Below, in pieces: positions 967 through 55,751 of a stretch of 64,000 nt of DNA. Source of the DNA: Megalobrama amblycephala (lineage: Eukaryota; Chordata; Actinopteri; Cypriniformes; Xenocyprididae); the NCBI RefSeq assembly GCF_018812025.1, contig NC_063045.1:16176046-16240045 (forward strand). The letters are read 5' to 3'. The notes under the pieces are model-generated. The model saw only the letters and a program-made list of their open reading frames with translations, made no database searches and was not told where the DNA came from. The translations under genes were made by a program, and so were the position numbers. Positions within the stretch are counted from its first letter, which is position 1; each line of letters starts with the position of its first letter.

Positions 967-1030
967 CATGATATAATGACGTTGCATTTCTGACTTCTCA
1001 CTGGCCAGCTTGTCACATTCGAGCTTCAGA
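967..1030 (-). CDS. tle5 (AES) coding exon 3, partial gene
   Basis: This 64-bp exon reads LKLECDKLASEKSEMQRHY followed by IM. It continues the Q (tetramerisation) domain of Groucho/TLE proteins and is nearly identical to the human TLE5 segment. The acceptor is CTCTCCAG and the donor is GTAAGT. The first base completes a Ser codon split with exon 2, so the phase is consistent. TLE5 is a short nuclear protein that shares the N-terminal Q domain with full-length TLE co-repressors but lacks WD40 repeats. It can tetramerise with them and modulate repression in Wnt, Notch and NF-kB settings. All later exons lie beyond the left edge. Full-length tle1-4 genes share this exon, so the TLE5 call rests mainly on exons 1 and 2. 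Confidence 0.93.

Positions 1031-32131: not shown

Positions 32132-32133
<2 letters not shown>
32096..32133. repeat. (TC)19 microsatellite touching the gna11 stop codon
   Basis: Nineteen TC units on the plus strand, read as GA repeats in the transcript. The GA of the TGA stop codon at 32134-32132 is the first unit of the repeat. Confidence 0.97.
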
Positions 32134-32371
<238 letters not shown>

Positions 32372-32448: not shown

Positions 32449-32634
<186 letters not shown>

Positions 32635-33313: not shown

Positions 33314-38607
<5,294 letters not shown>

Positions 38608-38736
38608 CTGAAAATGATGCTTTGCAAGTCGAAGGGATATTCAATAATCCCTGTGGTAGGGATGCGAACCCTAAGCACGTCTTGTTGAGTCGGCAGATAC
38701 GACGGCTCTGCGATACGGTCCAAATCACTTAGATAG
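38608..38736 (-). CDS. gna11 alternative exon 4b (GNAQ-like switch I)
   Basis: This 129-bp exon encodes residues 160-201: [18 protein letters not shown], then [17 protein letters not shown] and DLQSIIF. It has Arg183, Ile184 and the Mg-coordinating Thr186. The first base completes Tyr159 (TA+C) and the last two begin Arg202. The acceptor lies behind a long pyrimidine tract ending CTCTAG and the donor is GTAGAT. DLQSIIF and the YLPTQQ spacing resemble GNAQ. It is one of two intact exon 4 copies; the other lies 339 bp upstream. Both look functional and no disabling change is seen. Confidence 0.95.
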
Positions 38737-39075
38737 CTAGAGACAAGGAGAGACGGAGAGAGAGAAGGAAGAAAACAAAATAAAGCATGGCAGCAGATCC
38801 CTTTAAGAGCTTGAGAGCTTTGGAAAAGCAGTGAGAGAATGCCGCTCGGGATCCTGGGATGCGACGGCACAACCTTCTGCTTACTCCGGTGAAGATCTCT
38901 AGTGAGTTCCCCAAAACAAAACTCTTTAAGAGTAGCAAAGAAACAACAACAGCAAAGGCTGAGCCCCGGGTGGGTGTGAGAACGCGATCAGGGAAGGCAG
39001 CAGTGCAGTTGCAGCAGCAGGTTAAAGGTCAGGAGACAGCGGCGGCAGTGAGGGTGTGCCGTGGATTGGCGATAC

Positions 39076-39204
39076 CTGAAGATTATATTCTCCAGATCAA
39101 AGGGATACTCTATGATGCCTGTAGTGGGCACTCGGACCCTCAGTACATCTTGCTGGCTGGGCACGTATCCCGAAGTTGATATACGCTCTAAATCGCTAAG
39201 GTAA
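39076..39204 (-). CDS. gna11 alternative exon 4a (GNA11-like switch I)
   Basis: This exon has the same 129-bp length and the same phases as exon 4b. It encodes [18 protein letters not shown], then [17 protein letters not shown] and [14 protein letters not shown] matches human GNA11. It differs from exon 4b at ten of 42 whole codons, mainly in the helical-domain end (residues 165-175), at residue 184 (Val versus Ile) and near residue 198. The acceptor is TTCATCCCACAG and the donor is GTATCG. Arg183 and Thr186 are kept. The paired exons suggest mutually exclusive splicing, like the alternative exons known in GNAO1, although transcripts are needed to show use. Confidence 0.95.
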
Positions 39205-40272: not shown

Positions 40273-41276
40273 GGCCCTGTTTCCACCTGGTATTAAGATG
40301 AGTTTTTGGTCGACTGGATCACACGTGGACGACGGTAATACAGGTGTAAACGGGGTGACAACATTTTGAGCTTGTCCACTTTCGACCACTTCTAAAGGTA
40401 GTCAAAAACGCATTCGACCGGATTGCTTTCATAGTGTAGACGCTCAAGTGGTCGAATGTGTTTCAACAGCCACTAAAGACCGCCTACTCTCCGCCTACTG
40501 ACCTAATGCGTAAACATTGAAAGCGCACGCTAGCCAGACGGGATTTAAACTTTGTCAGCTGAAGACCCAAGTTTGATTTGAAGTCGAAAAATGTACCAAG
40601 CACAATGTTCTCTCACCATTCCTGATTTCTTCACAGCGTTCAACGTGTTCTTCCGTCATCTCCAGGCGCGATCATATGTAAATTGTGAGAGCTTATTTTG
40701 TCTATTAAGCAAGGAACACACTAAGCCGACGCAAGTGACGACGAAAGCAGACTGCAGGGTTGGCTCATGCCAAACCGACGCTCGACACTCGACGGCCAAG
40801 TAGCACGTCCATTCTGCGCCCGTGTAAGAAAAAAATGCCTTTCCATACCAGCAGGTGGCAGTAGCTGAACAGCCAATCAGAACGATCAGATGGCCGACTG
40901 ACCGTCGAGCTCAGATGATTCAACATGTCGAATTGGCTGAAAAAAAGCAGACGAGGACCAACTTCAGACAGAACACGCTGAGAAAACTTAACCAGCCGAC
41001 AAACAAAAACTGCCCGATGAAAACTGGCGACCGTCCGCTTGGTGTGTTCCGGGCTTTAGATCGAAAGATCTAAAAGTGCCTATACATTTACCCGCCCATA
41101 GTCCTTCCACTTGGGGAAAAAAAAAAAAAAAGAAAAAAAAAAATCAGGACAGAAGTGGTTTAATATGGACAAAAGAGACGTATTAAAATACCAGGTGGAA
41201 ACGGGTATGTGACTCCCTCGTCCACTTGTGATCAGATAGACCAAAATGCATTTTAATACCAGATGGAAACAGGGCC
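40273..41276. mobile_element. MITE with GGCCCTGTTTCCACCTGG ends
   Basis: The left end GGCCCTGTTTCCACCTGGTA is matched by the right end, reversed, GGCCCTGTTTCCATCTGGTA. It lies in gna11 intron 3. A second MITE is nested at 40711-41056, and a decayed relative lies at about 5470-6010. Confidence 0.85.
40711..41056. mobile_element. Nested MITE (GGAACACACCAAGC type)
   Basis: The left end AAGGAACACACTAAGCCGACG pairs with the reversed right end CGGAACACACCAAGCGGACG. It interrupts the surrounding element. Its interior shares GCAGACTGCAGGGTTGGCTC and AAGTAGCACGTCCATTCTGC with the segment near 16160-16260. Confidence 0.8.
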
Positions 41277-41695: not shown

Positions 41696-41850
41696 TATTT
41701 AGTGGAGTCAGAGAGCTGGTACTCTCGCCTGCGGTCGTAGGCTTCCTGGATGCCTGGATCCGTCCAGAGCATCTTTATTGCATTGATAAAGGGCTGGTCG
41801 AAGGAGCATACCTTCTCCACGTCGACCTCTCGCACCAGCAGAGCATTGGA
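41696..41850 (-). CDS. gna11 exon 3
   Basis: This 155-bp exon encodes [20 protein letters not shown], then [20 protein letters not shown] and [11 protein letters not shown], ending in TA of Tyr159. It is part of the alpha-helical domain. The acceptor is TTATCCACAG and the donor is GTAAGT. Because the exon ends in TA, the base supplied by the next exon decides between Tyr and a stop. Confidence 0.96.
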
Positions 41851-42214: not shown

Positions 42215-42399
42215 CTTGTTCTCTTCATATTTGAATGGGATCTTGAGGTGCTCGGTGGCACGGATCATGGCCTGCATGGAGGTGAAGATGTTCTGGTAGA
42301 CGAGTTTGGTGAAGCCGCGCTTGTCCTCGTCGGTGTAGCCTGTCCCGTGAATGATGCGCATCTGTTTGATGAACGTACTCTTGCCGCTCTCTCCTGTGC
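42215..42399 (-). CDS. gna11 exon 2 (P-loop)
   Basis: This 185-bp exon encodes the G1/P-loop GTGESGKST (residues 46-54), then [20 protein letters not shown] and [19 protein letters not shown] to KYEENK. The acceptor is CTCTTCAG and the donor is GTGACA. The first two bases complete the Gly46 codon. P-loop and downstream contact residues are intact, so nucleotide binding is expected. Confidence 0.97.

Positions 42400-54227: not shown

Positions 54228-55751
<1,524 letters not shown>

Follow-up and report, generated by a model that had tools for sequence, protein, structure and literature searches.

The window, by which we mean the whole 64,000-nucleotide stretch analysed here (C2:16176046-16240045 of a 1.11-Gb genome), holds a G protein alpha subunit gene with two homologous exons side by side at the exon 4 position. 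This raises the question of whether one gene makes two proteins, and how old such an arrangement is. From comparison of the two exons with each other and with their relatives, we think it quite probable that this is a cyprinoid gna11a with an ancient alternative exon 4 pair, 4a and 4b, which would make two Galpha11 proteins by a choice of 4a or 4b. The spliceosome would join exon 3 to one of the two and continue with exon 5. The two resulting Galpha11 proteins, each of 359 aa, would have their GTPase residues in common and differ at ten positions. Each exon would be used, in a mutually exclusive and regulated manner, and the two proteins may differ in effector, RGS or inhibitor contacts. If true, a single gene supplies two forms of a central signalling switch, which amounts to a natural experiment on switch I and offers a possible reason why GNAQ and GNA11 differ there.

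The gna11a gene and its two copies of exon 4

A complete gna11 coding sequence lies on the minus strand of the window, running from 55709 to 32132 over seven exon positions (Table 1). An earlier note on this DNA had called the gene gna11, and two results bear this out: the spliced 359-aa product matched, along all 359/359 residues, G(q)/G(11) alpha chains whose structures have been solved, and a gene tree built without exon 4 (35 chosen rows) placed the window gene with zebrafish gna11a, carp (Carassius) and Culter (99/93). In the same tree the teleost gna11 rows cluster at 99/98, apart from gnaq. The protein containing 4b is 100% identical over 359 residues to the G-alpha part of Culter alburnus model P0010, a 359-aa part that scores 454.7 bits against the Pfam G-alpha family; the fish is therefore probably Culter or one of its near cyprinoid relatives. 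P0010 also carries a TLE_N domain, and looks like gna11a fused to the next gene by annotation. A TLE-type exon, LKLECDKLASEKSEMQRHYIM, is found downstream of gna11a at window positions 967-1029 (-) and equals residues 360-380 of P0010. Within intron 3 (window 40273-41276) we also noticed 34-nt inverted repeats, 88% complementary and about 1 kb apart, which resemble the ends of a DNA transposon.

Table 1. Coding exons of gna11a and the intron between the paired exons, in window coordinates
Feature	Position	Strand	Length and remarks
Exon 1, coding part from ATG	55574..55709	-	136 nt, then GTAAGT
Exon 2	42215..42399	-	185 nt
Exon 3	41696..41850	-	155 nt, terminates ...AAA TA
Exon 4a, earlier of the pair in the transcript	39076..39204	-	129 nt, 42-residue peptide
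4a/4b intron	38737..39075	-	339 nt, GT-AG, pyrimidine-rich stretch preceding 4b
Exon 4b, later of the pair in the transcript	38608..38736	-	129 nt, 42-residue peptide
Exon 5	33353..33482	-	130 nt, begins G ATG
Exon 6	32472..32625	-	154 nt
Exon 7, coding part up to TGA stop	32132..32322	-	191 nt

The same note had described two intact exons of equal length and phase with good splice sites, which proved correct to the base, spacing included; our recount likewise gave ten of 42 codons different, with Arg183 and Thr186 retained in both. The borders are CCCACAG/TTACCT...TTCAG/GTATCG for 4a and GTCTCTAG/CTATCT...TTCAG/GTAGAT for 4b. As would be expected of mutually exclusive exons, 4a and 4b are tandem and homologous, agree in length and phase, and have intact splice sites with AG/GT flanks. 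Each is open from exon 3 into exon 5. The note's proposal of two possible Gq/11 proteins from a single gene is supported.

A single exon 4 was seen in the other Gq-class genes of the genome: gna11b (C17, LQSIIF), gnaq (C4, LHSVIF), two gna14-like genes (C12, LENVIF; C4, LQTVIF) and the gna15-like genes adjoining the window; these locus names are ones we infer and assign here. The gnaq exon shares 89/129 nt with 4b and 90/129 with 4a. A tblastn search of introns 3-4 of gna11b and gnaq in the same genome for a relic of 4a returned the known exon 4 of each, the rest being at chance level. To the right of the window, on the plus strand of C2:16240046-16287000, lie three gna15-like exon sets plus an extra last exon in tandem, head-to-head with gna11a; the portions of Lokits et al. 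2018 (PMC5896119) used here give the GNA11-GNA15 arrangement as head to tail in every species of that study.

Splicing of the pair

Splicing of exon 3 straight to exon 5 joins TA to G and creates a TAG stop; since further exons follow, a transcript skipping both copies would probably be a decay substrate. When both exons are included the frame stays open and 43 residues are added, giving 402 aa. Because double inclusion is in frame, reading-frame policing cannot enforce exclusivity, which must stem from splicing. The 339-nt spacing and the GT-AG sites would speak against branch-point crowding and U2/U12 incompatibility. The remaining option would be regulated competition between 4a and 4b.

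The pyrimidine tract is longer at 4b (20/22, with a run of 12) than at 4a (16/22, with a run of 6), and neither donor has a G at +5. Of four genes with a single exon 4 used for comparison, three (gna11b and the two gna14-like genes) also lack that G and gnaq has it, while the single exon 4 of gna11b has a tract of the 4b kind with no competing exon. As tract and donors recur at single exon 4s of the same genome, they are not specific to the pair. When examined for RNA pairing, the 597-nt pair region folded no better than its shuffles (z 0.25). A hairpin spanning the 4a donor (z -1.6; 19/200 shuffles equally good) was dropped, as its pairing letters recur, when read by eye and unfolded, in a gna14-like gene at its one exon 4. 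The 339-nt intron contains TCTCT six times against 2.3 expected and YGCY 15 times against 10.5, with 7/300 shuffles reaching each count; given that nine motifs were tested in three regions and that the gna11b tract is alike without a competing exon, we do not take this excess for a regulatory mark. Altogether, folding of the 597 nt and comparison of tracts and donors with those of single exon 4s revealed no device specific to exclusivity.

An unlikely alternative is that the exons are not exclusive and that a substantial part of the normal product holds both (402 aa, with switch I duplicated). The double form is in frame, and 402-aa models containing both exons are common among the matches listed, in many fish (for example P0004, from a cluster of 34), implying that exclusivity may be imperfect. 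Double-exon gene models can, however, be prediction artefacts, and the 43-aa insertion in Anopheles Galphaq was judged by its finders, in the part of the source used here, to come from a premature transcript and to be likely to upset the catalytic pocket; Lygus transcriptomes lacked it (PMC4553527). AlphaFold prediction from the same 35 sequences gave a mean pLDDT of 54.4 for the double-inclusion protein P0004 and a similarly low 53.6 for the single-form control P0038, which makes the prediction uninformative. The three protein searches behind these gene models supplied 194 distinct proteins, the best 120 of 7983, 7984 and 1833 matches. Models with 4a alone (such as Oryzias P0087 and Neogobius P0115) and with 4b alone (Culter P0010) also occur among the matches listed. 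Several apparent tandem forms were rejected: mole-rat P0163 has two near-identical copies and was taken as a model artefact, as were the mammal models P0001-P0003, in which GNAQ is joined to GNA14; in the 402-aa Triplophysa tibetana P0152 the two exon 4s are gnaq- and gna14-like, probably from two neighbouring genes merged by annotation.

Exon types and the age of the duplication

The earlier note's statement that no such pair was known in vertebrate GNA11 or GNAQ was mistaken: the gna11 exon 4 pair itself is already published. Lokits et al. 2018 (BMC Evol Biol 18:51, PMC5896119), in the portions on which we draw, describe exons 4.1 and 4.2 for coelacanth and gar in both GNAQ and GNA11, and for teleosts in GNA11, zebrafish GNA11a included. 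In zebrafish and cod GNA11a has the two variants and GNA11b a single one; 4.1 and 4.2 are proposed to be used alternatively, and the duplication is dated before 2R and after the split from invertebrate deuterostomes (PMC5896119). The window gene, from another cyprinoid species, likewise has a second, homologous exon 4 that agrees with the first in length and phase, with one exon of each type; gene and exon are those of zebrafish GNA11a, and gna11b is again single-variant. The opposite copies in tetrapod GNAQ and GNA11 and the pairs in shark and ray GNAQ, to which we turn below, are not mentioned in those portions of the text, and we claim no priority for them. A literature search, with most subscription papers outside its scope, found no functional study of the fish exon 4 pair.

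Among the matches listed, tandem exon 4 forms occur on the vertebrate side in teleosts, gar, coelacanth, sharks and rays, and on the arthropod side in insects and crustaceans. An exon tree was built from 83 rows chosen from the 194 proteins and this genome (42 columns). It contains a branch (96/97) of 31 rows made up of 21 vertebrate second exons, seven single exons of tetrapod and teleost GNAQ, two single-exon rows from cartilaginous fish, and the gna11b exon of the genome studied here. Window 4b falls inside this group and window 4a with other teleost first exons, in agreement with the labels GNA11-like for 4a and GNAQ-like for 4b that the sequence had first suggested. The two cartilaginous-fish rows are labelled GNA11, but the exon-4-free tree leaves their gene ambiguous, and P0046 has a G(q) name. 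First exons form no single clade (6% of 200 bootstrap trees); together with the exons of tetrapod GNA11, GNA14, lamprey, hagfish, rotifer and arthropods they lie outside the 4b/GNAQ group, a pattern that an older 4a type would predict. One gna14-like exon 4 of this genome (C4:52427774-52427902; L010 7275-7403, -) has a 4b-like ending, LQTVIF, yet it too lies outside that group.

Exon type cross-cuts gene. Shark and ray GNAQ models also have the exon 4 pair, and the exon-4-free tree places these pairs beside GNAQ at 83/76, a value under the starred level; pairs of the zebrafish type belong to GNA11. This agrees with a duplication preceding the GNAQ/GNA11 split, as published, and our own trees concur in shape, although the AU test does not reject a single clade of all GNA11 exon 4s (p 0.244). 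The small number of columns in the exon tree (42) and the near-equal likeness of gnaq exon 4 to 4b and to 4a count against it too. The GNAQ-like character of 4b does not imply that it was acquired from GNAQ, as the exon type is probably older than the split. Likewise the 96/97 branch suggests, with the same non-significant AU test, that tetrapod GNAQ and GNA11 probably kept opposite copies, 4b and 4a respectively. We would give an even chance to a broader reading, in which mammalian GNAQ (DLQSVIF) and GNA11 (DLENIIF) differ in switch I as a relic of former alternative splicing: an ancestral Gq gene would have alternated between the two exons, with 4a becoming fixed in tetrapod GNA11 and 4b in GNAQ after the vertebrate genome duplications, and many fish would still choose within one gene.

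It is improbable, in our view, that the pair is older still, already present in an ancestor shared by vertebrates and arthropods and lost many times since. Insects and crustaceans do have a tandem pair in the same place and in frame, in the matches listed and in the parts of two sources used here (PMC4553527, PMC5765363), and a clade of the arthropod second exon with vertebrate 4b was not rejected (p 0.45). Holding the two arthropod exons together as their own clade, however, gave a likelihood 5.0 above that of the free tree (p 0.644), which favours independent duplication; in the gene models among the matches listed, rotifer, lamprey and hagfish show just one exon 4, of the 4a-like kind, and the published dating mentioned above (PMC5896119) also counts against so early an origin.

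The insect genes are nevertheless a close parallel in form to the alternative pair that we propose. As far as the consulted parts of the sources go, insect Galphaq has alternative exons 4A/4B in Drosophila, D/D' in Anopheles and B/B' in Lygus (PMC4553527; exon 4A also PMC5765363); the isoforms are tissue-biased, and one Lygus form, confined to the head, is similar to the isoform of fly phototransduction (PMC4553527, PMC5765363). As in window gna11a, a tandem homologous exon occupies the same place in a Gq gene and double inclusion would add 43 residues; unlike the fish pair, insect Galphaq has alternative later exons too, and its duplication is probably independent, although not significantly so. 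GNAO1 is also a Galpha gene with locally duplicated exons, its exons 7-8 being mutually exclusive last-exon pairs kept over vertebrates (PMC5896119, as far as used here), but there the unit is a two-exon pair at the receptor-coupling C terminus and not switch I. SNAP25, which encodes an unrelated protein, is a further vertebrate gene in which an exon was duplicated in tandem long ago: its exons 5a and 5b are described, in the portion of the source seen, as giving two mutually exclusive splice variants (PMC2581893). In this genome, a Galpha gene at C19:14436440-14445634 has two last-exon pairs in succession, which are probably the exon 7-8 pairs known from gnao1.

Protein differences and constraint on both copies

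The two window exons differ at residues 165, 168-171, 173, 175, 184, 197 and 198. Seven of these positions are in 165-175, residue 184 sits beside Arg183 in switch I, and 197-198 follow shortly past switch I. We surveyed markers of exon type in 21 sampled vertebrate pairs, the window pair included. Residue 184 is V in 21/21 4a rows and, in 4b rows, I (17/21) or V (4/21); residue 197 is E in 20/21 4a rows and Q in 18/21 4b rows; residue 198 is N in 20/21 4a rows and S (17/21) or T (4/21) in 4b rows; and residue 169 is A, S, T or L in 4a rows and D or E in 20/21 4b rows. The part of PMC6463727 used here describes Val184 as touching the Gq inhibitors YM-254890 and FR900359 directly and reports a mild effect of single substitutions; any effect of V184I, which is not among the substitutions covered there, may therefore be small. 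If the proposed choice is true, it swaps residue 184 in fish GNA11, and splicing might tune inhibitor or effector behaviour.

Could one of the two exons be unused and decaying, so that the gene has a single working product? We consider this very unlikely. Across 14 sampled teleost GNA11-type rows 4a is more variable than 4b (mean pairwise residue identity 0.83 vs 0.93), and in this genome one copy has vanished from gna11b, and one from gnaq, without a recognisable trace. Nevertheless, both frames and all splice sites of the pair are intact, 25/42 positions of 4a are invariant across the 14 rows, and dN is far below a saturated dS between the window exons (YN00 dN 0.19, dS 1.88; NG86 dN 0.15, dS not computable). 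Residues 184, 197 and 198 are kept in these rows according to exon type. The gna11a exon 4 pair is intact and under purifying selection.

At the nucleotide level 86/129 positions of 4a and 4b are identical; the differences fall at 30/42 third, 8 first and 4 second codon positions, and 9/12 fourfold sites differ. With third positions near saturation, the two exons must be an old pair under constraint and cannot be a product of the assembly. An alignment of the two exons with 40-nt flanks spans 134 nt and no more, likeness stopping at most 3 nt from the exon borders, which argues against a recent segmental copy or an assembly duplicate. A recent local duplication or assembly artefact is thus refuted by the divergence of the two copies and, with zero likeness beyond the exons and the same pair in other fish, can be given practically no credence. 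Searched against the whole genome, the 4a peptide found 23 matches, and the window pair is the only one whose members lie less than 1 kb from each other.
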